Shown in pieces: positions 1 to 20,212 of a DNA stretch of 26,488 bases. The position numbers were made by a program, and so were the translations under genes. Each line of letters begins with the position of its first letter. Position 1 is the first letter of the stretch. The stretch spans positions 1 through 26,488 of IMG/VR virus record IMGVR_UViG_3300042355_001001, one strand, 5' to 3'. This DNA is from a virus. The notes below the pieces were generated by a model. It was given only the letters and a program-made list of their open reading frames with translations, was not told the DNA's origin and did no database searches.

Positions 1-2
1 GC

Positions 3-638
3 ATCCAGGCCCGCCAGGTGCGTGAACAACTGGCAAGCCTTGGCATCAATGCCGAAATCTTCACCCGCGCCGACTTCCGCCGCCTAGTGGAAGGCACCGA
101 TGTCAGCAACGAGCAAGGCCGCCAGCGGCTGTCGCAACTGCTGACGCTGGCCGACGCGTTCGCGCCCGTGGGCAGGTTCCTGGAGGCGAATGGCGGAAGC
201 CTGGAAACGGTGGCCAACATGGCGCCGGCCATCGCTGATCTACGTGGAATGCTCGACGTGCAGGCGCCAATGGGCAACACCCTGGCCAACCTCAACACCC
301 TGGCGAACATGGCGCCGGCCATCGCTGATCTACGTGGAATGCTCGACGTGCAGGCGCCAATGGGCAACACCCTGGCCAACCTCAACACCCTGGCCAACAT
401 GGCGCCCACCACGGGCGCGGTGCAGGAGATCCTGGGCGGCACCAGCATGGAAGGCCTGGGCGCGCTGACCGATGCCACCACGGCCGGCACCAATGCCACG
501 GTGAGCACGCTGGAACGCCTGATCTCCCGCGTGGGCGAGCTGGAAACCGCGCTGGTCAAGGCGCTGGACAAAAACGCCCGAGCAATGGGCGATGCGCTGG
601 CCTACGAAGGCCCGCAAACCGGCTTCTCGGACGGCTGA
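3..638 (+). CDS. Tail tape-measure protein, C-terminal part (5' truncated by window)
   Basis: The reading frame is open to the window's left edge and ends with TGA at 636-638, so only the last ~212 codons are visible; the GTG at 18 is an internal valine. The visible part has the low-complexity, Ala/Leu/Asn-rich helical composition of tape-measure C-termini, with a final coiled-coil-like segment rich in Leu and Glu. It directly precedes tail-tip genes, which is where a tape measure sits in siphoviruses; such proteins set tail length and line the tail tube. A 30-residue unit beginning NMAPAIADLRGM occurs twice in perfect tandem and starts a third time. No catalytic motif is visible. Assignment rests on context and composition; another long tail protein is possible. 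Confidence 0.6.
   Translation: MQARQVREQLASLGINAEIFTRADFRRLVEGTDVSNEQGRQRLSQLLTLADAFAPVGRFLEANGGSLETVANMAPAIADLRGMLDVQAPMGNTLANLNTLANMAPAIADLRGMLDVQAPMGNTLANLNTLANMAPTTGAVQEILGGTSMEGLGALTDATTAGTNATVSTLERLISRVGELETALVKALDKNARAMGDALAYEGPQTGFSDG
211..390 (+). repeat. In-frame 90-bp tandem duplication inside the tape-measure gene
   Basis: Bases 211-300 and 301-390 are identical except at one position (215 C versus 305 G, synonymous). A third copy begins at 391 and diverges after about 16 bases. The 90-bp period equals 30 codons, so the frame is kept. Near-perfect nucleotide identity means the duplication is recent or kept uniform by recombination; a collapsed or expanded assembly repeat is the alternative. 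Confidence 0.95.
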
Positions 639-647
639 GCGCGCACC

Positions 648-2120
648 ATGCCCATCTCAGACGCCCAATACACCGCCTGGCTGCGTGCCGATAACCAGCG
701 CCGCGTGGTGCTGGTGGAGGCCGAAGCCTACAGCGCCGGCGCCGTGGTCACGCGCTACATGAGCACCCACGGCTTCATCAGCACGCCCACGGATTCCCCC
801 GCCAGCACCGGTTACGACGACATCGTGCTCGATGTGCCCTGGGTGCGCAGCCAGCTTGCCGAAGCCTTCCGCGGCCGCAGCCTCATCGGCTACGGCGACA
901 TCGACATCGACAACAGCAGCGGCGTGCGTGACGCCTGGCTGACGGACGCCTGGGACGGCCGGCCCGTGCGCCTGTACCTGGGTGACCCCGCTTGGCCCAA
1001 GAGTGACTTCCGCCAAGTCTTCAGCGGCACGCTGGAGGACATCCAGGCCCGCGACAGCGCCACGCTCACCCTGCGCATGCGTGACCGCCAGGCCCTGCTG
1101 AACGTGCCGGCCTGCACCACGCTCATCGGCGGCACAGACACCAACAAAGACCGCCGCCGCCCCATCTGCTACGGCGAGTGCAAGAACGTGGCGCCCCGGC
1201 TCATTGACGCGGGCGCGCGCCGCTACGCCGTGCACGATGGCGCCATCCATGCCATTGACGCGGTCTACGTCAACGGCAGCGCCACAGGCGGCTACACGGC
1301 AGACCTGGCCAACGGCACCATCACCCTCACGGGCGCGCTCACCGGCACCATCACCGCCGACGTTCGCGGCAGCAAGACCGGCGGCACCTACGTGACCACC
1401 GCGGCCGATGTGATGCAGCGCCTGGTCACAGAGCGCACCGCGCTGACCAGCGGGGACATTGACACCGCCAGCGTCAGCGCCATGAACACCGCCATCGGCG
1501 CCACCGTGGGCCTGTACGTGGACAACGACACCACCACCGTGCTGCAGGCGCTGGACACCCTGCTCACCGGCCTGGGCGGCTTCTACACCGTTGACCGCGC
1601 CGGCAAGCTCAGCGTCGGCCAGTTCCGCGCCCCCGCCGCGCCGGCCGCGCTCAGCTTGGATGCCGATGACGTGGAGGAAAACAGCGTGCAGCTCGTGCGC
1701 CGCATCCTGCCGGCCAAGAGCGTGCGCCTGGGGTATGCCCGGTTTTGGAACACCAGCACCAGCGGCGCCGTCACCCTGACTGAAGCCCAGCGCGAGCGCC
1801 TTCAGACGCCGCACCTCGTGGCCAAAGCCACCAACACCCTGACGGGCCATCTGCTGGCCATCGACGAAGACCTGCAGCCCACCGCCCTGCTGGACGCCAC
1901 CGCCACCGCCACCGAGGCCACGCGCCAGGCCGCCCTCTACAACACCCTGCGCTACGTCTACCGCCTGGCCGGCTTCACCGCCGCGCAGCAGGTCAAGCTG
2001 GGTGACGTGGTGGCCCTGAACCTCGGGCGCTTCGGCCTGAACAACGGCACCCTGGCCCGCGTGGTGGGCCTGCGCGAAAGCCTCACCGGCGGCCGCATCG
2101 AACTTGAGGTCTTCGTCTGA
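648..2120 (+). CDS. Tail-tip / baseplate hub-like structural protein
   Basis: A 490-residue protein begins at ATG 648, nine bases after the tape-measure stop, and its TGA overlaps the next ATG (TGATG at 2118-2122). The N-terminal ~150 residues look like a beta-rich structural domain. A central segment near residues 160-205 carries RPICYGECKNVAPRLID followed by a Tyr/His-Asp-Gly turn, and the C-terminus has a GDVVALNLGRFG stretch followed by beta-strand-like sequence. These features resemble tail-tip proteins encoded just after the tape measure in siphoviruses and gene-transfer-agent-like tails. There is no signal peptide or enzyme motif. It probably forms part of the distal tail complex that carries the fibre. 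The family assignment is by resemblance, not by a decisive motif. Confidence 0.5.
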   Translation: MPISDAQYTAWLRADNQRRVVLVEAEAYSAGAVVTRYMSTHGFISTPTDSPASTGYDDIVLDVPWVRSQLAEAFRGRSLIGYGDIDIDNSSGVRDAWLTDAWDGRPVRLYLGDPAWPKSDFRQVFSGTLEDIQARDSATLTLRMRDRQALLNVPACTTLIGGTDTNKDRRRPICYGECKNVAPRLIDAGARRYAVHDGAIHAIDAVYVNGSATGGYTADLANGTITLTGALTGTITADVRGSKTGGTYVTTAADVMQRLVTERTALTSGDIDTASVSAMNTAIGATVGLYVDNDTTTVLQALDTLLTGLGGFYTVDRAGKLSVGQFRAPAAPAALSLDADDVEENSVQLVRRILPAKSVRLGYARFWNTSTSGAVTLTEAQRERLQTPHLVAKATNTLTGHLLAIDEDLQPTALLDATATATEATRQAALYNTLRYVYRLAGFTAAQQVKLGDVVALNLGRFGLNNGTLARVVGLRESLTGGRIELEVFV

Positions 2121-2956
2121 TGCCCAACCTGCGCGTCATCTCCACCAACGACGTGGACGCCGCCACGCTCACCAGCGGTGACTTCACCGCCAGCCTGCCC
2201 GTGGGCAACCTGCAGCTCGAAGGCCGCGCGCGCGTGGCCCGCACCACCAACGCCACGGGCACGAAAACCATCAACGGCAACTTCGCCGGCAGCACCCTGT
2301 GCAGCGCCCTGGTGCTGTACGGCCACAACCTCACCGGCGCGGCCACCTGGCGCCTGCGCCTGTACGCCGGCGCCAACCAGACGGGCACCGTGGTGTATGA
2401 CAGCACCACGCTCACGCCGCTCACCTCCATCGGCTGGGGCAGTTTCGCCTGGGGCGTGGCGCCCTGGGGTAATGGCGTGTTCAATAACTGGCAGCAGCCG
2501 TTCTACACCTTGTGGTTCACAGGGGTCTTCGCCCTGAGCTTCCGCCTGGAACTGGCCGACCCCTTGAACCCCGCCGGCTACCTGCAGGCCAGCCGCCTCA
2601 TCATCGGCCGCTACCTCACGCCCGCCTTCAATGCCGAATACGGCCTGAGCCTGGCGTGGGACACCAACAGCGAACAGCGCCGCACCCTGGGCGGCAGCGT
2701 GCGCACAGACCGCCGCGCCAGCTTCCGGCGCCTGTCGTTTGACCTGGGCCTGCTGGACATCAGCGAGCGCGCCCTGTGGCTAGACCTGGCCCGCGTCAAC
2801 GGCCTGCACCGCGAGATTTTCGTGAGCGTCTACCCCGAAGCCGGCGCCGACCTGGAGCGTGACCACAGCATGCTCGGCAAGTTCGCCCAGGCCGCGCCCA
2901 ACACCCTGCAGGTACCGAACCGGTGGGCTCAGAAATTTGAATTCATCGAGGTTTGA
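2120..2956 (+). CDS. Tail-tip associated structural protein, unknown family
   Basis: A 278-residue protein is translationally coupled to the upstream tail-tip gene through TGATG. It is rich in Thr, Asn, Trp and Leu, with alternating polar and hydrophobic residues typical of beta-sandwich tail proteins. A Gly/Trp-rich centre (GWGSFAWGVAPWG, about residues 108-120) could be a surface loop. It ends with aromatic FEFIEV. It sits between the tail hub-like gene and the receptor-binding fibre, so it may connect the two. No enzyme motif or transmembrane segment is seen. I do not recognise a named family with confidence. Confidence 0.55.
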   Translation: MPNLRVISTNDVDAATLTSGDFTASLPVGNLQLEGRARVARTTNATGTKTINGNFAGSTLCSALVLYGHNLTGAATWRLRLYAGANQTGTVVYDSTTLTPLTSIGWGSFAWGVAPWGNGVFNNWQQPFYTLWFTGVFALSFRLELADPLNPAGYLQASRLIIGRYLTPAFNAEYGLSLAWDTNSEQRRTLGGSVRTDRRASFRRLSFDLGLLDISERALWLDLARVNGLHREIFVSVYPEAGADLERDHSMLGKFAQAAPNTLQVPNRWAQKFEFIEV

Positions 2957-2968
2957 ACGGAGCAAGCC

Positions 2969-4066
2969 ATGTCATTTGATTTGTCACCATATAACGTCAC
3001 GCTAGGCGGCTTCGACTACCCGGTGAAATACTCGCAACTCCTGACCTACGTGCAGGATGGTCTGAACAACTTGGCGGGGTTCAAGAATCGAATCATCAAC
3101 GGCAAGATGGATATTGCGCAGCGGGGGACGAGTTTCGCGGCGGTGGGAGCGGGCACATATACGCTTGACAGATGGCGCTTTTCAAGCAACGCGACTTCCG
3201 CCGTTATCACTGTTTCTCAGCAATCTGACGTTCCGAGCAGCAACGAGTTTCAGAACAGCTTGCGGTTGGCTGTGACAACCGCTGACACAACCATTGCATC
3301 AACCGATCAAGTCAACATTCAGCAACGCATTGAGGGCTACAACGTCCGCGACTTGATTGGCCGCACTTTCACGTTGTCATTTCAGGTCCGCTCCTCCAAA
3401 ACCGGAACGCACTGCGTGTATTTGCAGAACGACGCGCAGGATCGAAGCTATGTGGCCGAATACACAGTCAGTGCCGCCAATACCTGGGAGAAGAAATCAG
3501 TAACAATCAGTGGAGGACTGATTACAGCAGGGACTTGGAACTGGACGACCGGCACGGGGTTGCTCGTTGGATGGACTCTGGCAGCCGGCTCAAGTCTGCA
3601 AACCACCGCAGGCGCATGGCAGACCGGAACCCTCCTTGCCACCTCCGCCCAAGTCAACTGCCTCGACACCATCGGAAATATCTTCGCCATCACAGGCGTT
3701 CAGATTGAACGTGGCGCGGTGGACACGCCGTTTGAGCATCGGCCTTATGGAGCTGAGTTGGCGTTGTGTCAAAGGTATTACCAGCTGCTGAACGGTTTTG
3801 TGGGCACTTGCATCAACGCAACATCGGTACTGGTTGGCTCTGTTTTTCAGGTGGCTATGCGTTCTGCGCCGACTCCAGGGGCAACCGCTGTGTTGGCGGT
3901 TACTGACAGCGCCAATTCATTTACGCAAAGCTCCATCAGTGTTTCTTTTAGCGGAACGTCAACCGGGGGCCGTTTTACGCTTGCAAACTTCACTGGCCTG
4001 ACTTCGTTAAGACCTGTCATTGATAATGGGACAGCAGGTCAAATCACGCTGAATTCGGAGTTGTGA
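2969..4066 (+). CDS. Receptor-binding tail fibre with carbohydrate-binding-like domain
   Basis: A 365-residue protein starts at ATG 2969 behind a GGAG ribosome site. Residues about 40-70 carry [17 protein letters not shown] and a following YTLDRW. This is the hallmark opening of the jelly-roll domain found in phage fibre tips. Around residues 250-275 it has [19 protein letters not shown] followed by LCQRYYQ, the standard end of that domain. The last ~90 residues are a variable Ser/Thr-rich tip likely to contact the receptor. The gene is visibly less GC-rich than its neighbours, with many A/T-ending codons. This suggests recent exchange of the host-range determinant. It probably attaches to the tail tip encoded upstream. 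Confidence 0.8.
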
Positions 4067-4067
4067 T

Positions 4068-4355
4068 ATGTATAAGTTGACCAACGATCAAAATGTGCGC
4101 CGGTTGTCAGACGGGTTGTTCATTCCGACAACAGACCCAGCCAACACCGACTCGCAGGCCTACCAAACCTGGCTCGCCGCAGGCAACACCCCCCAACCCG
4201 CCGACCCCCCACCCGCCACTGACTACAGCGCTCTGCGCCGCGCCGCCTACGCCGCCGAATCCGACCCCATCTATTTCATGTGGCAGCGAGGCGAGGCAAC
4301 GCAGCAGCAGTGGCTAAACAAGATCGCCGAGATCAAGGCCCGGTGGCCGGCATGA
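4068..4355 (+). CDS. Small fibre-associated protein / putative fibre assembly chaperone
   Basis: A 95-residue protein starts one base after the fibre stop, with GGAG eight bases upstream. The N-terminus ([27 protein letters not shown]) and a central [15 protein letters not shown] followed by a Pro-rich linker are characteristic of small proteins encoded directly after phage fibres. The C-terminal half ([19 protein letters not shown]) recurs in such proteins and resembles fibre-assembly or fibre-tip accessory domains. The first third has lower GC like the fibre, while the rest returns to phage-typical GC, as if the exchange boundary falls inside this gene. Role inferred from position and motif resemblance. 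Confidence 0.6.
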
Positions 4356-4693
4356 CCAGCCTTCTGCTCTACCTCGCCACCGCCCTGGGCATCACCTACG
4401 CCCTGTACGTCTTCTACGCGGCCGTGATGAACATCAAGCGCGTGCGTGCCATGGGCAAGCTCACCCCCCTGGGCTACGCCTTCGGCTACCCCACGCTGCT
4501 GCTCGGCTACACGCTCGACGTGCTGTGCAACGTCTTCGTCATGACCATCGTGTTCCTCGAACTCCCGCGCGAAACCACCGTCACCGCCAGGATGAAACGC
4601 CACAACCGCAGCAGCACCGGCTGGCGCCTGTCCGTGGTGCGCTTCTTCGAGCCCCTGCTCGACCCGCTGGACCCCAGCGGCGACCACATCTGA
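4352..4693 (+). CDS. Small membrane protein of the lysis cassette
   Basis: ATG 4352 overlaps the previous stop as ATGA, so I choose it over an upstream in-frame start at 4280; the product is 113 residues. An N-terminal hydrophobic segment (about residues 2-23, [22 protein letters not shown]) and a second (about 38-68, [20 protein letters not shown] followed by [11 protein letters not shown]) predict two membrane helices. The basic C-terminus ([19 protein letters not shown]) should lie in the cytoplasm. Position directly before the endolysin suggests a lysis accessory or holin-like role. This is inference, because a clear 3-TM holin follows the endolysin. Confidence 0.6.
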
Positions 4694-4708
4694 CGCGCAG
4701 GCCACCGC

Positions 4709-5185
4709 ATGAACTTCGACACCGCCTTCGCTTTGCTCTTGAACCACGAGGGCGACTTCTCTGACCACGCCGCAGACCCCGGCGGCAAAACCCGCCTCGG
4801 CATCACCGAAGCCGTCGCCCGCCAGGCCGGCTACACGGGCGACATGCGCGCCCTGCCGGTGGAGCTGGCCAAGCGCATCTACCTGGACAGCTACTGGCGC
4901 CCCGTGCGCGCTGATGACCTGCCGCCCGGCGTGCGCTACATCGTCTTCGACGGCGCCGTCAACAGCGGCCCCGCGCAATCGGCCCTGTGGCTGCAGCGGG
5001 CGCTGGGCGTCACAGCCGATGGCGTCATCGGCCCCCGGACCCTGGCCGCCGCCTACGCAAAAGACGCGCAGCAGCTCAAGACCGCCATCCTCGCCCAGCG
5101 CCTGCGCTTCATGACCAGCCTGACCAACTGGCCCGCCTTCAGCCGAGGCTGGGCCCGCCGCATTGCCGATTTGATGGAGGCCTGA
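4709..5185 (+). CDS. Endolysin, GH108-type N-acetylmuramidase
   Basis: A 158-residue enzyme whose N-terminus carries NHEGDFSD (Glu14 is the expected catalytic acid) followed by DPGGKTRLGIT at about residues 23-33, the signature of glycoside hydrolase family 108. The C-terminal half, VRYIVFDGAVNSGP, then WLQRALGV and ADGVIGPRTL, matches the peptidoglycan-binding domain that accompanies GH108. It would cleave the glycan backbone of murein at the end of the lytic cycle. There is no signal peptide, so release depends on a holin, and holin-like genes flank it on both sides. Length is normal for the family. Confidence 0.9.
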   Translation: MNFDTAFALLLNHEGDFSDHAADPGGKTRLGITEAVARQAGYTGDMRALPVELAKRIYLDSYWRPVRADDLPPGVRYIVFDGAVNSGPAQSALWLQRALGVTADGVIGPRTLAAAYAKDAQQLKTAILAQRLRFMTSLTNWPAFSRGWARRIADLMEA

Positions 5186-5188
5186 CCC

Positions 5189-5755
5189 ATGGCTGACTTC
5201 GACTGGAAAAGCTTGGTCGCCACGGTGGCGCCCACGCTGGCCACGGCGCTCGGCGGTCCGCTGGCCGGGATGGCCACGAAAGCTATTGCCACAGCCGTGC
5301 TGGGCCGCGACGAAGCCACCGAGGCCGAACTGGCGCAGGCCCTGGCCGGCGCAACACCCGACCAGCTCCTGGCGCTGAAGAAGGCCGAGGCCGACTTCGC
5401 CGTGCGGATGAAAGAGCTGGACCTTGACCTGGAGAAGCTGGCCGGCCAGAACGCCGCCGACGTCAACAAGACCATGCAGGCCGAGGCAGCCTCAGAGCAC
5501 TGGCCCACCTACTCCTGGCGCCCCGCCATCGGCTACGCCGTGGCCTTGGCCGTGGTGCTGTCGGTCCTCACCGTGTTCCTCGCCTACGGCGCCGTCATCC
5601 TCTACGGCCGCGCCGAGGGCCTGCAGCACCTGCCAGGCATCCTGGCGGCAGTGGCCGGCATCATCGGCGTGGTGTCCCCCATCCTCGGCATCGCGTCCTG
5701 GTTCAGAGGCCGAATGCAGGCCGACCCGAACATCCCGACGGTCAATCGGGGTTGA
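5189..5755 (+). CDS. 3-TM holin
   Basis: A 188-residue protein begins at ATG 5189, with a strong GGAGG inside the end of the endolysin gene. The N-terminal half is Ala-rich and helical (about residues 1-100). It is followed by WRPAIGYAVALAVVLSVLT, a second hydrophobic stretch, and a third around LPGILAAVAGIIGVVSPILGI. This arrangement, with a Trp-Arg-Pro before the first helix, matches the three-helix holin family also seen in gene-transfer-agent release cassettes. It would permeabilise the inner membrane to release the endolysin. It is the last gene before the integrase region. Confidence 0.8.
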   Translation: MADFDWKSLVATVAPTLATALGGPLAGMATKAIATAVLGRDEATEAELAQALAGATPDQLLALKKAEADFAVRMKELDLDLEKLAGQNAADVNKTMQAEAASEHWPTYSWRPAIGYAVALAVVLSVLTVFLAYGAVILYGRAEGLQHLPGILAAVAGIIGVVSPILGIASWFRGRMQADPNIPTVNRG

Positions 5756-5973
5756 GTTCTCCGGCCCGCTGGGGGCGTGAGTGCTACCGGAAGTGCTACC
5801 GGGCGGCGCCGCTACAAGGTGATTCCCTCCATTGAACTACGGCGGGAACCCCCAAGCCTACCACGCTCTCACCTGTAGAAACTTCCCGCAAACACCCCCC
5901 ACAATCACCCGCTTTCACTGCCCGAGTGCTACCGTTTGCATCCGGTAGCACTTCGGCGAATCAAGGGGCGGGC
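5756..5973 (+). other. Gene-free region with repeats: candidate attP and int control region
   Basis: Between the holin stop and the integrase start there is no convincing reading frame. The motif AGTGCTACCG occurs directly at 5780-5789, 5792-5801 and 5925-5934 and inverted at 5943-5952. Repeats placed like this beside a tyrosine integrase are typical of arm-type binding sites of an attachment site. On the minus strand 5846-5822 resembles the first part of a tRNA gene (a TA GTTC AATGG D-arm), a common core for integration. The integrase ends convergent with the early operon with only 11 bases between, so this is the only place near int with room for attP. Inferred, not proven. Confidence 0.45.
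5925..5952 (+). repeat. Perfect 10-bp inverted repeat just before int
   Basis: AGTGCTACCG (5925-5934) and its exact complement CGGTAGCACT (5943-5952) are separated by eight bases and end 21 bases before the chosen GTG start of the integrase. The same decamer occurs twice more at 5780-5801. It may be an integrase or directionality-factor site, an operator, or a hairpin over the int leader. Confidence 0.9.
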
Positions 5974-7023
5974 GTGGCGAGCATCATCGAGGTGAAGGGC
6001 AAGTGGCGGGCGCAGGTTCGGCGTCGGGGGCAGCCATCCTACACGCGCACGTTCACCACCAAGGCGGCGGCTGAGCGCTGGGCGCGGCAGCTTGAGGCGG
6101 ACATCGACCGCCAGCGCGACGGCAGCATGCCGGCCGGGCCGGTGGCGGGGGCGGCGTCGGGGCGGGTGGTGCTGGTGGCTGACCTCATCCAGGCCTACCG
6201 GGACTTGCGCGACCAGGCGCGGCCGATCTCTGATGCCTCCACCGAGCACTACACGCTCAAGCACCTGGCGCACCACCTGGGCGCGCGTGATGCGCTGCGG
6301 CTCACCGCGCAGGATCTGGTGGGCTACTGCTCAGCGCGTCGGGACGACGGCGCCGGGCCATACACCTGCAACATGGACATCGGCAAGCTGGGCACGGTGC
6401 TGCGCTACGCGGCCCTGGCCCGCAAGGTGACGCTGCCCGATGTGGTGGGCCAGGCCCGCCCGCTGCTGTCGCACCTGGGGCTGATTGGCGGGGGCGGCAA
6501 GCGCGAGCGCCGGCCCACTGAGGACGAGCTGCAGCGCCTGGTGGCCTACCTGCACGCGCAACACGGGCCGGTGTATGCCGATGTGGTGCGCTTCGCCGTG
6601 CTGACGGCCATGCGCCGCGGTGAAATCGTGCGCCTACGCTGGGCCGATGTAGACGCCACCAAGCGCCTGGTGCTGGTGCGCGACCGCAAGCACCCCCGGC
6701 GCAAGCTGGGCAACGACGAGTGGATCCCGCTCCTGGGCGACGCCTGGCCCCTGCTACAGCGCCAGCCCCGCGGCGACGGCGAGCTGATCTTCCCGCTGCA
6801 CGAGCAGACGCTGAGCAAGTATTTCCGCTGGGCCTGCCAGGCGCTGGCCATCCCGGATCTGCACTTTCACGATCTGCGGCACGACGGCACTTCGCGCCTG
6901 TTCGAGCAGGGCTATGCGGTGCAGCAGGTGGCGCTGGTGACGGGGCACAAGGACTGGCGGCACTTGAGGAGGTACACGAATCTCAGGCCGGAGGATTTGC
7001 ATCGAGATGAGGAAGGGCAGTAG
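5974..7023 (+). CDS. int: Tyrosine site-specific recombinase (phage integrase)
   Basis: The GTG at 5974 gives the usual integrase opening (V/M)ASIIEVKGKWRAQVRRRG, an arm-binding domain of about 50 residues; an upstream in-frame start at 5926 would run through the inverted repeat and is less likely. A SAM-like core-binding domain spans about residues 65-165. The catalytic domain has TAMRRGE (Arg214), HFHDLRH (His299, Arg302), GHKDW (His325) and the nucleophile Tyr334 in RRYTNL. All the expected catalytic residues are present, in a 349-residue protein of normal length. It would integrate the phage by recombining attP with a host site and, with an excisionase, reverse this. It is convergent with the leftward operon. 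Confidence 0.93.
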   Translation: MASIIEVKGKWRAQVRRRGQPSYTRTFTTKAAAERWARQLEADIDRQRDGSMPAGPVAGAASGRVVLVADLIQAYRDLRDQARPISDASTEHYTLKHLAHHLGARDALRLTAQDLVGYCSARRDDGAGPYTCNMDIGKLGTVLRYAALARKVTLPDVVGQARPLLSHLGLIGGGGKRERRPTEDELQRLVAYLHAQHGPVYADVVRFAVLTAMRRGEIVRLRWADVDATKRLVLVRDRKHPRRKLGNDEWIPLLGDAWPLLQRQPRGDGELIFPLHEQTLSKYFRWACQALAIPDLHFHDLRHDGTSRLFEQGYAVQQVALVTGHKDWRHLRRYTNLRPEDLHRDEEGQ

Positions 7024-9015: not shown

Positions 9016-9293
9016 GCGGGCCCCTTCGCCCGTGCAATGGCGGCGCGGGCTTCATCCTCCATCGCCGCATCAACGTATTCGTCTAGAGACTCCATTGCAT
9101 ACAGGCTCAACTCAGGCGTGATGCAGTCTGATCTGTCGGCGTCGCGGATAAACCGATACCGTTCTGCATCCACCCGAAGCCGCTCGACCTCGGCATAAAG
9201 GCGTCGCAGTTCTGATGCGACCTCTTTGTCCCACGGGTTGCTGAACTTATCCAGCGAATCAGCCATCCGCAGGGCAGTAGGTTGTGTGGTCAT
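9012..9293 (-). CDS. Hypothetical phage early protein with helical motif
   Basis: ATG 9293 overlaps the methyltransferase stop as ATGA; the 93-residue product would be lost in the longer upstream frame, which merely shadows the methyltransferase. A long helix (VASELRRLYAEVERLRVDAER) followed by YRFIRD, around residues 25-50, is a sequence type that recurs in small proteins of many phage early operons. The C-terminus is acidic then Ala-rich. No enzyme motif. Codon use is slightly less GC-rich than that of its neighbours. Function unknown. Confidence 0.65.
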   Translation of the reverse strand: MTTQPTALRMADSLDKFSNPWDKEVASELRRLYAEVERLRVDAERYRFIRDADRSDCITPELSLYAMESLDEYVDAAMEDEARAAIARAKGPA

Positions 9294-10597
9294 GCCGCCT
9301 CTCTCCTCTCCATCAACTCCACAAAGTTCGCGCGCACCAGCGCCTCGGCCATGGGTGGGCAGACGCTGTTGCCGATCATTCGCACCTGGGCGTGCTTGGG
9401 CAGGGGGCGGCCCAGGTGTGGGGCGTCGAGCAGGTAGCTCTCGGCGAAGCCCTGGGCGCGCGCCAGCTCGCGGGGCTGCAGCATGCGCAGCCCGATATCC
9501 ACGATGCGGTACTGCTCGCCGGCCACGGTCACCAGGCCCATGCGGTCTTTGGTGGGCAGGGTGTGCATGGGTTCGTCCAGGCCGGCCCACTGGCCGCCGC
9601 TGCCGTAGAACTTCACCAGAAACGCGGCCACCAGGCTGTGATGGTCCACGCTGGTGACGGTGCCGATCGGCATGCGCAGGTCACTGCCCACCACGCCGGT
9701 GTAGTGCTTGGCCAGGAAGGCTGACACGAGGCAATGCTCGGCCTTGCTGGTGATGGTGCTCAGCGGCTCATGCACGCTGCGCACCTTGCCGGCGTCGCCG
9801 TGGCCGGTGTGGCCGATGCGGACGATGAAGGGCTCAGCGGCCTCGATGACGAAGCGGCGCAGGCCTTCGGCCACGCGGCGCAGGGTGGCGTCGGCCAGCG
9901 GGCGGGGGCGGTTGAAGATGCTGGGGCAGGGCAGGCTCCAGTCGATGCACTGCGCAGCGGTGCGCCAGGGCTGGGGCCGGCCGGGGCCGTGCGTGGGGGT
10001 GGGCCACACGATGGGCTGGCCATCGCGCCGGGCCACCAGGAACAGGCGCTTGCGGCTGGTGGGGGCGCCGTAGTCGCAGGCGCGCAGCTCGCGCCACTGC
10101 ACGGCGTAGCCCAGGCGCTGCAGGGCGTTGACGAAGGCGCGGAACTCGCGGCCCTTGTGGCGCGGGCAGGGTCGGCCGTCCTGCGTGAGCGGGCCCCAGG
10201 TGGTGAACTCTTCCACGTTTTCCAGGCAGATGAGGCGCGGCTGCACGGTGGCCGCATAGCGCACCGCCACCCAGGCCAGCCCGCGGATCTTCTTCTCCAC
10301 GGGCTTGCCGCCCTTGGCCTTGCTGAAGTGCTTGCAATCCGGGCTGAACCACGCCAGCCCCACGGGCCGGCCGTCGCAGACTTCGCGGGGGTTCACATCC
10401 CACACGCTTTCGCACAGGTGGCGCGTTTGCGGGTGGTTGGCCTGGTGCATGGCCACGGCCTCGGGGTCGTGGTTGATGGCGATGTCCACCGGCCGGCCAA
10501 TGGCCCGCTCGATGCCCGATGAGGCCCCGCCGCCGCCGGCGAAGTTGTCGACCACCAGCTCGTGGTGCAGGGGGAGGGTGAATTGGGGGGTGAGCAT
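9290..10597 (-). CDS. C5-cytosine DNA methyltransferase
   Basis: A 435-residue protein with all main C5-methyltransferase motifs. These are motif I DNFAGGGGAS (residues about 17-26, S-adenosylmethionine binding), motif IV SPDC with catalytic Cys88, motif VI ENV at 126-128, motif VIII TSRKRLFLV at about 180-188, and motif X GNSVCPPMAEAL near residue 408. The variable region between VIII and X would set the target sequence. The PPC of classical enzymes is SPDC here. It has no adjacent restriction endonuclease, so it is an orphan, probably protecting phage DNA from host restriction or marking it. It starts by TGATG coupling to the gene upstream. Confidence 0.92.
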   Translation of the reverse strand: MLTPQFTLPLHHELVVDNFAGGGGASSGIERAIGRPVDIAINHDPEAVAMHQANHPQTRHLCESVWDVNPREVCDGRPVGLAWFSPDCKHFSKAKGGKPVEKKIRGLAWVAVRYAATVQPRLICLENVEEFTTWGPLTQDGRPCPRHKGREFRAFVNALQRLGYAVQWRELRACDYGAPTSRKRLFLVARRDGQPIVWPTPTHGPGRPQPWRTAAQCIDWSLPCPSIFNRPRPLADATLRRVAEGLRRFVIEAAEPFIVRIGHTGHGDAGKVRSVHEPLSTITSKAEHCLVSAFLAKHYTGVVGSDLRMPIGTVTSVDHHSLVAAFLVKFYGSGGQWAGLDEPMHTLPTKDRMGLVTVAGEQYRIVDIGLRMLQPRELARAQGFAESYLLDAPHLGRPLPKHAQVRMIGNSVCPPMAEALVRANFVELMERREAA

Positions 10598-14808: not shown

Positions 14809-15099
14809 ATGGCAGGCCAGCGAGTGAGCACCCAGGCCGCAGGCGGCCGCGCCGCACCCACCGGGCGCAAGGTGGTGCAGTTCGAGGCGCGGATCGGCAA
14901 CCTCTACCTCACCCGCATGGGCCGCGTGTGCAAGCTGCTGCGCATCGAGCCGCCCACGTCCGATCGGCCGGATTGCCTCCTCGGCTTCGGGTACGTGGAT
15001 GACCACAACCGCGTGCTGCGCATCGGGCCGTCGATCGACGGGTTCGACATGCACGAACGCATCGCCAGCCGGTTGCTGACGAGGGTGGGGGCGGCGTGA
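14809..15099 (+). CDS. Hypothetical protein upstream of primase-helicase
   Basis: A 96-residue protein starts at ATG 14809 with AAGGA eight bases upstream, at the end of the structured leader, and its stop overlaps the primase-helicase start as GTGA. The middle is beta-rich (VVQFEARIGNLYLTRMGRVC then LLRIEPP), followed by CLLGFGYVDDHNRVLRIG and a HERIASRLL helix. No enzyme motif or membrane segment. If the leader works like C4, this would be the controlled gene; it is not recognisably an antirepressor or a cell-division inhibitor. Coupling to the replication protein suggests a replication-linked role. Confidence 0.65.
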   Translation: MAGQRVSTQAAGGRAAPTGRKVVQFEARIGNLYLTRMGRVCKLLRIEPPTSDRPDCLLGFGYVDDHNRVLRIGPSIDGFDMHERIASRLLTRVGAA

Positions 15100-17504
15100 A
15101 CGCGCAGGACGTGGACCACATGCTGGAAAACATGCCGGCGCAGATGCGCGCCCTTCGCCAGTGGCTGGTGTGGAGGTTTGAAACCTTCGAGGGCGACAAG
15201 AAGCCGCGCAAGGTGCCCTACTACACCAACGGCCGCAAGCGCAGGGGAGAGCAGGGCAGCGATGAAGACCGCCACCTGCTGGCTGCTTTTGATGTCGCCT
15301 GCGACCTGGTGGCGCGTGGCCAGTATGACGGCATCGGCTTTGCGTTCCTTCCGGGCGACGGGTTGATCGGCATCGACATTGACGGCGCCATTGACCCCGA
15401 CACGGGCGAGGTGTCTGAGCGCTGCCTGCAGATCATCCGCGACTGCGCCTCCTACACCGAATACAGCCCCAGCGGGCGCGGCGTGCACATCATCGTGGCT
15501 GGCCAGACGCAGACCTTCAAGGACAACGAGATCGGCGTGGAGGTGTTCTGCGGCCGGCAGTTCTTCACCTGCACCGGCAAGCGCTGGCCCGACACGCCTG
15601 ACGATGTGCAGCCCATTGCCGATGAGGTGCTGCAGGCCCTGCGCAAGCTGGTGAAACCTGAGCGCGCACCCCATGCGGGCCCGCCCCGGCCCATGGCCGC
15701 GCAAGCCGGCCCGCAAGACCTGGCCCTGCGCCTGGAATCCGCCCTGCTGAGCCTGCACCCTGACATGCCCCACGACGACTGGGTGCAGATTGGCATGGCC
15801 ATCAAGGCCGCGCTGGGCGATGGCGGCCTGCGCGTGTGGGACTACTGGAGCAGCCGCGGCACCAAGTACCCCGGCAGTGAGTACCTGGCCCGCAAGTGGC
15901 AGAGCTTCCGCGGCACGGGCGTGACCGAGGCCACCGTGTTCAAACTGGCCATGGACGCCGGATGGCGCCCACCGCGCCCGCCCAAGCCCGCGGCGCCCGC
16001 AGCGCGTGCCCCAGCACCGCCGCCCACAGGGCCGATGGACGCGCCCGATCTGCAGGACGACGGCCCCGAGCTGGACGAAGCTGACCTGGGCGACGACACC
16101 ACGTCCACCCCTTCCACTGGCTCCGCGCCGGGTGGAAGGCGCAAGCCCCGCAACAACCTGCCGCCCGCGCTGGATGCCCTGCTGTTGCGCAACACCGAGG
16201 GCGGGGTGGCCGATTGCCGTGAGAACGTGTTTCTGGTGCTGAAGCACCACCCCGAGCTGGCCGGCCTGGTGGGCTTCGACGAGTTCGCCCACCGGGTGCT
16301 GAAGCTGCGCACCACGCCCTGGGGCTCAGAAGCGGGCGAGTGGAGCACAGACGACGACTACAGCCTGGGCTACTGGCTGGCCACGCAGTTGCGCTTGAGG
16401 GTGCGGGCTGAGGCCACGCTGATGGCAGGCGTGGCCATGGCTGCGAGTGACAACAAGTTCCATCCGGTGCGTGAGTACCTGGACAACCTGCCTGCCTGGG
16501 ACGGCATCGAGCGCCTGCCCTTTTGGCTCAGCGAGTGCCTGGGCGCCAATGAAACCACCTACACACGCATGGTGGGCCCGTGGTTCGTGATGAACCTGGT
16601 GCGCCGCATCCGTGAGCCGGGATGCCAGGCCGACTACATGATCGTGCTGGAGGGCAAGCAAGGAAAGCGCAAGTCCACCAGTCTGCGCACGCTGGTGGCG
16701 CGCGACGAGTGGTTTGCAGACACGCCCATCCGCATCGGCGACAAGGACGCCTTGCTCAACCTGGCCGGGAAGTGGCTGTACGAGATTGCCGAGCTGGACA
16801 GCTTCAGCCGCGCCGAAATCACGGCCGTGAAGCAGTACCTCACCAGCCGCATTGACCGGGTGCGCGAGCCCTTCGCCCGCCGCCCGACCGACCGCGCGCG
16901 CAGCTGTTGCTTCGCTGGCACCACCAACCAGGACGAATACAGCAAGGACAGCACCGGCGCCCGGCGCCTGTGGCCTGTGGCCTGCGACGGCGAGATCAAG
17001 CTGGACAAGCTGGCCGCTGACCGCGACCAGATGTTCGCCGAGGCCATTGCCAACCTGGCCAGCGCCGACCCTGAAAAGCGCCGCTGCTGGCCCACGCGGG
17101 ACGAGGAAGAAAAGTACCTTGTGCCCGAGCAGGAACGGCGCGAGATCGGCGACCCCTGGTACGAGCGCATTGCAAGCTGGATCGATTCCCGCGCGAAGTT
17201 CAACAGCGAGCGCGTGGACGAGGTGGCCGACATGGACTCCTTCACCACTCAGGAGATCCTGACCTACTGCCTGGGCGTGCCGATCGACCGTATTGACGGC
17301 GCCCGGCAGATGAGCACACGCGTGGGCATTGCCATGCACAAGCTGGGCTGGCTGAAGCAGCGTGACGCCACGGGCGCCAGGCTGTGGCGCTACATCAGGC
17401 CGAAGGCGAAGCCCGAGGCGAAGGACGAGAACGGTCTGGTGGGTGGTCCCGCCAGCGAGCCGCAGGCCGGTGGTCCGGCCGAGGAAACGCTCGATGAGTT
17501 CTGA
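15096..17504 (+). CDS. Phage primase-helicase: PrimPol domain fused to VapE-type ATPase
   Basis: An 802-residue protein starts at GTG 15096. The N-terminus is a primase-polymerase domain: GIGFAFLPGDGLIGIDIDGA (DxD metal ligands at about Asp94/Asp96), SGRGVHI (126-132) and GVEVFCGRQFFTCTG (147-161). A PriCT-like helical domain follows (about 205-290, HDDWVQIGMAIKAALGD), then a Pro/Asp-rich linker (291-345). The C-terminal VapE-type superfamily 3-like helicase has a P-loop GKQGKRKST (520-528), Walker B WLYEIAELD (560-568), GTTNQ (608-612) and STGARRLW (619-626). The last Gly of the P-loop is Arg, as in some phage relatives. It should initiate and unwind phage replication, probably at the repeats just downstream. 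Confidence 0.9.
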   Translation: MNAQDVDHMLENMPAQMRALRQWLVWRFETFEGDKKPRKVPYYTNGRKRRGEQGSDEDRHLLAAFDVACDLVARGQYDGIGFAFLPGDGLIGIDIDGAIDPDTGEVSERCLQIIRDCASYTEYSPSGRGVHIIVAGQTQTFKDNEIGVEVFCGRQFFTCTGKRWPDTPDDVQPIADEVLQALRKLVKPERAPHAGPPRPMAAQAGPQDLALRLESALLSLHPDMPHDDWVQIGMAIKAALGDGGLRVWDYWSSRGTKYPGSEYLARKWQSFRGTGVTEATVFKLAMDAGWRPPRPPKPAAPAARAPAPPPTGPMDAPDLQDDGPELDEADLGDDTTSTPSTGSAPGGRRKPRNNLPPALDALLLRNTEGGVADCRENVFLVLKHHPELAGLVGFDEFAHRVLKLRTTPWGSEAGEWSTDDDYSLGYWLATQLRLRVRAEATLMAGVAMAASDNKFHPVREYLDNLPAWDGIERLPFWLSECLGANETTYTRMVGPWFVMNLVRRIREPGCQADYMIVLEGKQGKRKSTSLRTLVARDEWFADTPIRIGDKDALLNLAGKWLYEIAELDSFSRAEITAVKQYLTSRIDRVREPFARRPTDRARSCCFAGTTNQDEYSKDSTGARRLWPVACDGEIKLDKLAADRDQMFAEAIANLASADPEKRRCWPTRDEEEKYLVPEQERREIGDPWYERIASWIDSRAKFNSERVDEVADMDSFTTQEILTYCLGVPIDRIDGARQMSTRVGIAMHKLGWLKQRDATGARLWRYIRPKAKPEAKDENGLVGGPASEPQAGGPAEETLDEF

Positions 17505-17508
17505 CATC

Positions 17509-17725
17509 CGTCCAACCTCCGTCCAACCTCCGTCCAACCTTCCGCAGAGGTTGGACGGCAGGTTTTCCGAGGGGAAAGTGCCGCCGTCCAACCCCGTCCA
17601 ACCTCCCTCACGTGCAGGCGCGTGTGTGGGCGCAGGCGGGGGCGTGCGGACGCCCGCCCGCCCGCCCGCACACACACCGGCGCGCACACGAGAAAAGGGG
17701 TTGGACGAGGTTGGACGGTTGGACG
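17509..17725 (+). repeat. CGTCCAACC repeat cluster: candidate replication origin
   Basis: The 9-mer CGTCCAACC occurs five times forward (starting 17509, 17520, 17531, 17585, 17595) and four times inverted (17549-17557, 17699-17707, 17709-17717, 17717-17725). The first three are exactly 11 bp apart, about one helical turn. Between the two blocks, 17615-17690 holds a very GC-rich imperfect inverted repeat (GTGTGTG near 17622 with CACACAC near 17669, and GGGCGT 17640-17645 with ACGCCC 17650-17655). The placement directly after the primase-helicase is what is expected of iterons at a phage origin. The function is inferred; the repeats themselves are plain. Confidence 0.7.
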
Positions 17726-17784
17726 GCCATAAGGCCAAGGCTGATGCTGCAGGGCATGCCAAGGGGAAGTCACTCAGGGACACC

Positions 17785-18006
17785 ATGCCCCAGACAGCAG
17801 AGCTGGTGGACTGGCTGCGGCAAGAGTTCGGCAAGGAAGCGGCAGACCGCATCGTGCTGCAGGGCAAGAGCGCAGCAGGCGGCTTCTACGCCGCAGAGGT
17901 TGCTGCTGACGGCACCCTCAAGCAATTCGGCAAGACCCGCAGCAGTGCAGCAGCCCAGGTGCTGGCAGACGGCACGCTCGGGTGGGCCAAGGGAGCAAAG
18001 CAATGA
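17785..18006 (+). CDS. Hypothetical 73-residue protein
   Basis: I choose ATG 17785 (upstream CAGGGACACC). The frame extends to ATG 17494, which overlaps the primase-helicase stop, but that extension only translates the repeat cluster into low-complexity Pro/Arg sequence. The predicted protein opens with a helix (MPQTAELVDWLRQEFGKEAA), followed by beta-like FYAAEVAADGTLKQFGKT and a C-terminal ADGTLGWAKG. No known motif. Position after the candidate origin and before the next gene (ATGA overlap) supports expression with the replication genes. The longer start cannot be excluded. Confidence 0.6.
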   Translation: MPQTAELVDWLRQEFGKEAADRIVLQGKSAAGGFYAAEVAADGTLKQFGKTRSSAAAQVLADGTLGWAKGAKQ

Positions 18007-19537: not shown

Positions 19538-20212
19538 ATGCCGGAAAAAGTGGTCATAGGGAACGCGGAACTGTGGCACGGAGACTGCCGCGAGGTGCTG
19601 CCGCTGCTGCCTGCGCACGATCTTCTGTGTACCGACCCGCCATATGGCATTGGGCAAGACGGCGGCGCCCAGCGCACACGCGGCAGCAAACGCACGAACG
19701 GTGACAAGCTGGGATGGGACAACGAGCGCCCACCCGCTTGGCTGTTCGGTCTGATGATTGAGAAGACCCCTGCAGCCGTGATTTGGGGAGGGAACTACTT
19801 TGCGGACATGCTGCCGGCCAGCATGGGTTGGCTGTATTGGGAAAAGCGCATGGGCGGCGATTTCGCCGATGGAGAACTGGCGTGGACGAGCATGCACCGT
19901 GCTCTGAGGCAGTTCAGCTACTACAAGAAGAACCCCGGCGACGAGCACCCTACACAGAAGCCGGTTGAGCTCATGCGCTGGTGCGTGAGCTTTGTGCCCG
20001 CTGCGCAAACGGTGCTCGACCCATTTATGGGCAGCGGGACAACCGGCGTAGCGTGCGCGCAGCTTGGCAAGGCGTTCACCGGCATCGAGCGCGAGCGCAA
20101 GTATTTCGACATCGCCTGCGAGCGCATAGCCCGCGCCCAGGCCCAGGGCACGCTTCTGCCGCCCGAGCCCGCGCAAGCCCCAAAGCAGCACGGCCTAGCG
20201 CTTGAAACCTGA
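19538..20212 (+). CDS. Beta-class DNA adenine-N6 / cytosine-N4 methyltransferase
   Basis: ATG 19538 follows GGAG. The 224-residue protein has motif IV TDPPYGIG (DPPY at 33-36, catalytic) near the N-terminus. Further along are VIWGGNYFAD, HPTQKP (137-142) and motif I DPFMGSGTTG (161-170, S-adenosylmethionine binding), then GIERERKYFDIACERI. Catalytic motif before binding motif defines the beta class. It is an orphan, with no restriction endonuclease nearby. The gene has more A/T codons than the terminase genes around it, so it may be a late insertion. DPPY does not settle adenine versus cytosine-N4. Confidence 0.9.
   Translation: MPEKVVIGNAELWHGDCREVLPLLPAHDLLCTDPPYGIGQDGGAQRTRGSKRTNGDKLGWDNERPPAWLFGLMIEKTPAAVIWGGNYFADMLPASMGWLYWEKRMGGDFADGELAWTSMHRALRQFSYYKKNPGDEHPTQKPVELMRWCVSFVPAAQTVLDPFMGSGTTGVACAQLGKAFTGIERERKYFDIACERIARAQAQGTLLPPEPAQAPKQHGLALET

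Follow-up and report, generated by a model that had tools for sequence, protein, structure and literature searches.

A two-sided iteron array directly 3' of vapE as a probable replication origin of a temperate phage

Results

The window, by which we mean the whole 26,488-base stretch of viral DNA analysed here, an IMG/VR record, belongs to a temperate phage, as it carries genes for an integrase, the small and large terminase subunits (TerS and TerL), a portal and a minor tail protein. Tail genes at 1-7023 continue into the integrase gene (5926-7023), the first in the ordered series int, rep, terminase, portal. This gene order resembles that of a non-integrated circular or virion genome, and the record breaks off within the head module, so that part of the phage is missing. 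Two DNA methyltransferases, of the C5-cytosine type and the N6/N4 type, are encoded at 9290-10597 (minus strand) and 19538-20212 (plus strand), the N6/N4-type gene sitting between those for TerS and TerL; both enzymes possibly serve as protection against host restriction.

The gene at 15096-17504 (plus strand) encodes a VapE-type primase-helicase of 802 amino acids, which we propose as the origin-binding initiator. Its product consists of an AEP-like primase part with PriCT_2, a VapE (SaPI Rep-like) helicase and a C-terminal winged helix (Pfam PF05272, 2e-66; PF08707, 1e-15), and the helicase part matches PDB 7pds, entitled 'Similar to D. nodosus vapE', by sequence (7e-35). An AlphaFold2 model of residues 360-802, built on an alignment of 58 relatives, has a mean pLDDT of 90 and ends in a winged-helix domain, predicted at codons 715-767 (17238-17396, plus strand) with a pLDDT of about 90-95. 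Compared with 7pds ('PriRep1 with dsDNA'), the model scores Z 33.3; the match covers 397 residues, spans model residues 1-410 and takes in the C-terminal domain. The second-best structural family is that of phage NrS-1 (Z 15). Judged from this model, the closest solved relative of the helicase and C-terminal domain is the SaPI replication initiator 7pds, and the protein joins the two parts that mark such an initiator, namely a SaPI Rep/VapE helicase (PF05272) and a C-terminal DNA-binding domain in the form of the predicted winged helix.

Directly 3' of this gene lie nine exact copies of CGTCCAACC, five on the plus strand (starting at 17509, 17520, 17531, 17585 and 17595) and four on the minus strand (17549, 17699, 17709 and 17717), all within the 217 bp from 17509 to 17725. 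The first copy begins 5 bp beyond the stop codon of vapE, and the array stops short of position 17785, where a 73-residue gene (17785-18006, plus strand) starts; this gene lies outside the proposed origin, and its ATG is kept in close relatives. The recount agrees with an earlier note on this DNA, which had described five forward and four inverted copies of the 9-mer behind the primase-helicase gene, three of them exactly 11 bp apart (those at 17509, 17520 and 17531). A search of the whole window found no exact copy outside the array; with up to one mismatch there were 13 copies window-wide against 8.2 expected, and the four one-mismatch copies outside the array represent no excess over chance, so that the 9-mer is not common elsewhere; a common 9-mer was what the note had named as grounds for rejection. 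The copies run in the order +++-++ on the left and three minus copies on the right of a centre of about 95 bp (17604-17698). The left iterons at 17509-17557 (three plus copies and the minus copy at 17549) are near-invariant in six relatives, and both the inner left pair (17585-17603, plus strand) and the right iterons (17699-17725, minus strand) point towards the centre. GC skew in the window, which the note had suggested computing, does not switch clearly where the array lies, and a search of Rfam gave no match.

A reading frame (17362-18006) is open across the array, yet it is not conserved, being interrupted in close relatives by indels of 1, 2, 5 and 7 nt. Over five close relatives, 79 of the 80 columns within iterons show no variation, compared with 16 of 43 columns in the outer spacers. 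As the iterons are kept while the frame is broken, it is the DNA and not the protein that is conserved, as the earlier note had surmised, and the codon-level constraint that would have spoken against it was not found in the array-crossing frame.

The arrangement recurs widely beside vapE. In a DNA-pattern scan for the repeat over viral contigs, run blind to genes, arrays lay mostly directly 3' of vapE wherever the flank sufficed; matches with two copies in a single orientation and no vapE are probably chance. For the converse test, VapE loci were chosen by protein similarity alone (the genome scan used a closer alignment, since an alignment of 26 VapE sequences was too diverse), and an array was defined as at least five copies of one 8-mer within 500 bp at the vapE 3' end. 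Such an array was present at 41 of 63 non-redundant loci and in none of 181 control windows (0/63 in-gene, 0/60 further downstream and 0/58 upstream). About a third of the loci, mostly distant relatives, had no array of at least five exact 8-mers in the region examined. At L149, L150, L157, L207, L217 and L220 vapE is followed by no detectable exact-8-mer array, and the origins there may have degenerate iterons or a different location. Cultured phages also carry arrays, with differing iterons: Pseudomonas U5 (CTGTCCC), Marinobacter PS3 (GGGGTGA), Paenibacillus Bob (CTGCAACA), Staphylococcus tp310-2 (ATGCAACA), Enterococcus phiFL4A (GTATCCA), Corynebacterium Dina (TTGTCCC), Streptococcus IPP50 (ATCGGTAG) and the Hamiltonella phage APSE-1 (GGTTGTTA). 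By the exact-8-mer measure there was none in VarioGold, Bacteroides SJC01 or Xanthomonas Xaf18, and the 8-mer count in Acidovorax Aval was no higher than in its own controls. In Staphylococcus phage QT1 (L212, MK450538), the depositors annotated repeat_region features at 3259-3302, 3403-3419 and 3601-3617 after the primase gene, with no function given.

Position, mixed orientation and spacing recur in phages of several phyla, and the layout stays while the iteron sequence shifts by lineage (GTTGGAC, GTTAGGA, GTATGGA, GTGACGC, TGCAACA and others). The innermost copies are inverted around the centre in 64 of 76 arrays, with a median centre of 94.5 bp; copies in the same orientation are mostly 8-11 bp apart (mode 9 bp), and the order seen in the window recurs, mirrored in labelling, even with a different iteron. 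The conserved spacing that the earlier note had asked of related phages is therefore present. The genes after the array vary, from antiterminator, HNH and P27 TerS, through a minor-tail-like protein followed by TerS, to VRR-NUC and a DEAD helicase; only clusters of downstream genes other than cluster 0 were counted here, that largest cluster having held translations of the array itself.

The iteron sequence appears to follow the helicase and its C-terminal domain. Loci with GTTGGAC arrays share the VapE helicase but differ in the primase joined to it, of which there are three types (AEP/PriCT_2, CHC2 zinc and Toprim_3); this indicates that the iteron goes with the helicase-C-terminal part. Across 76 loci, iteron similarity correlates at 0.63 with identity of the C-terminal domain, at 0.56 with that of the helicase and at 0.23 with that of the primase; given helicase identity, the partial correlation is 0.37 for the C-terminal domain (reached in 0 of 500 permutations) and -0.05 for the primase. 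Within the GTTAGGA/GTATGGA family, a single wing residue separates the iteron classes in 23 of 23 cases, Tyr occurring with GGT[T,A/G]GGA (9/9) and Phe, His or Ser with the [A/G,T]GGA class (14/14); it is the top column of the whole helicase-C-terminal region, a score equalled in 2 of 300 label shuffles. On a tree built from helicase columns only, residue and class each changed six times and all six independent pairs were concordant; the three pairs on well-supported branches cannot by themselves reach significance. Thirteen contigs fetched later, about seven of them distinct, all fit the rule; two of these held-out scans used peptide patterns containing the wing residue, which biases the residue found and not its pairing with the iteron. 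The rule is established only within the GTTAGGA/GTATGGA family; in the family of the window the equivalent residue, Leu763 (17382-17384, plus strand), occupies a variable position (L/E/D/V). These comparisons provide strong indirect evidence that the winged helix would be the part that reads the iterons.

The central element contains a GC-rich imperfect hairpin at about 17610-17695, and the inverted repeat described in the earlier note is thus present, with a DNA fold modestly above shuffles (z -2.2). As the distinctive property of the centre the hairpin was rejected, since folding in relatives (mean z -1.5 against -0.4 in controls) is a far weaker signal than alternation of purines and pyrimidines. 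Of 59 centres in relatives, 41 have an alternating run of 15 nt or more and 29 have one of 20 nt or more; among 5229 controls, which are equal-length windows from the same loci and mostly coding, the corresponding numbers are 12 and 2. The runs reach 53 nt and consist of GC, CG, AC, CA and some TA steps; in the window the alternation is interrupted, and its longest run is only 11. Negatively supercoiled DNA can switch to Z-DNA or extrude cruciforms at alternating purine-pyrimidine tracts. In the window the centre is not AT-rich (GC 0.77 against 0.67 in the region), and in only 31 of 76 relatives does the GC of the centre fall under that of the region. Several alphaproteobacterial and Gram-positive members have no alternating tract, which marks it as a lineage feature. 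In four Acetobacteraceae/Rhodospirillales and related VapE loci (L151, L159, L164 and L166), with GTGACGC or CTGACGCA iterons in the same layout, the centres are non-alternating and often purine-rich, a different kind of central element. In two further centres (L029 and L053), a GATCATGAGTCGCT hairpin is accompanied by about 20 nt of (CG)n.

Discussion

The recurrence of position, orientation and spacing, the co-variation of iterons with the C-terminal domain and the SaPI initiator as closest solved relative together support the reading that the array is very probably the cis-acting replication origin of this temperate phage, its VapE primase-helicase being predicted to bind the AGGTTGGACGG iterons through the C-terminal winged helix. 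The suggestion of the earlier note, a phage origin recognized by the helicase encoded upstream, is thereby the best-supported one. By homology, the winged helix of this phage would bind the AGGTTGGACGG iterons, and a pair of hexamers would probably be loaded, head to head, at the two convergent groups of sites. The centre of about 95 bp may then be opened, with replication departing from it both ways, and the fused N-terminal primase would make the primers that start synthesis.

Other functions for the array have to be weighed. Because TerS and TerL are encoded downstream in the window, the former about 1.2 kb away, the repeats might be a packaging site (pac or cos) for the small subunit; however, the array stays with vapE while the genes that follow change, terminase modules at some loci giving way at others to VRR-NUC and a DEAD helicase with no terminase nearby, and the iterons co-vary with the VapE C-terminal domain, all of which makes packaging very unlikely. 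A somewhat better, although still small, chance attaches to an operator array through which a phage regulator, or VapE itself, would control the genes downstream of vapE and not replication. Repeated sites between two co-directional genes would suit an operator, and autoregulation may coexist with origin binding, but outside the array the window has no exact site, the regulatory region included, the layout and central element recur beside unrelated downstream genes, and the closest solved homologue is an origin-type SaPI helicase. That the repeats are low-complexity coding sequence, or neutral tandem repeats produced by slippage, is scarcely credible: a frame does run through the array and GC-rich repeats are prone to slip, but the iterons are invariant where indels break that frame, slippage does not yield copies of alternating orientation, and the arrays recur over many lineages while being absent from every control window.

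Taking the array as an origin, we can speculate further, and with some doubt, that many proteobacterial VapE phages share a distinct class of origin. In this class, a supercoil-sensitive alternating purine-pyrimidine tract, able to form Z-DNA or cruciforms, might replace the AT-rich melting region and be kept as a property and not as a sequence, between two convergent iteron arrays whose sequence would depend on a small number of residues in the winged helix of VapE. The alternating centre raises the testable question of what lets origins of this kind open when they lack an AT-rich element. The natural variation of the wing also offers a ready specificity experiment (Tyr versus Phe/His/Ser, with GGT[TR]GGA versus GGT[RT]GGA), for instance a GTTAGGA phage (Tyr) against a GTATGGA phage (Phe) on the duplexes GGTTAGGAA and GGTATGGAA.

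For a large group of temperate phages that are usually annotated only with 'virulence-associated protein E', the analysis supplies a probable origin location and initiator, together with a means of recognition, inverted iteron arrays 3' of vapE. Literature searches on the repeat sequence returned unrelated primer-like matches only, and those on VapE with iterons and on Z-DNA phage origins nothing relevant, most subscription papers lying outside the coverage. In this partial literature we found no paper describing a PICI-type origin in VapE phages, and novelty is accordingly not proven.

Among known systems, origins of the lambda O type have their iterons within the O gene, next to an AT-rich stretch, and O is not a helicase. 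The phage array has in common with them iterons near an initiator gene, but its copies are of mixed orientation and follow the stop codon, in contrast to the one-orientation, in-gene iterons of lambda. In phage P4, the alpha protein is a primase-helicase initiator that acts on short iterons in both orientations, at ori and at a separate crr. The latter arrangement sets P4 apart, whereas by description (it is mentioned in PMC6092414) the type of initiator and the short two-orientation iterons are alike. The SCCmec protein Cch2 with its putative origin (PMC7581432) is similar in that the helicase loads itself and binds, through its C-terminal domain, direct repeats lying just behind its own gene, but this helicase belongs to the D5/Primase_Cterm family, and there are three 5-nt iterons and no convergent arrays.

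The closest likeness is to the PICI/SaPI origins of SaPIbov1, SaPI5 and EcCICFT073 (PMC6092414), which lie directly 3' of the Pri-Rep gene, have two sets of iterons around a central region, use an initiator that has the VapE/SaPI Rep fold and binds DNA through a C-terminal domain, and vary in iteron sequence from element to element. A cloned pri-rep-ori of the E. coli PICI EcCICFT073 replicates, and replication is lost without rep (PMC6092414). The switch of orientation around the centre, which the earlier note took to be unusual, is in fact the published PICI layout. Two differences stand out: the carrier here is no helper-dependent satellite but a temperate phage, whose genes include those for an integrase, the large terminase subunit, a portal and a minor tail protein, and where the centre described for PICI origins is AT-rich (PMC6092414), the one here is GC-rich and hairpin-like and in many relatives alternates between purines and pyrimidines. 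The array would therefore work like a PICI/SaPI-type origin, yet is not classed as a PICI origin. This runs against the 2018 statement that the layout is unique to PICIs (PMC6092414) and suggests that satellites and phages have a replicon in common.
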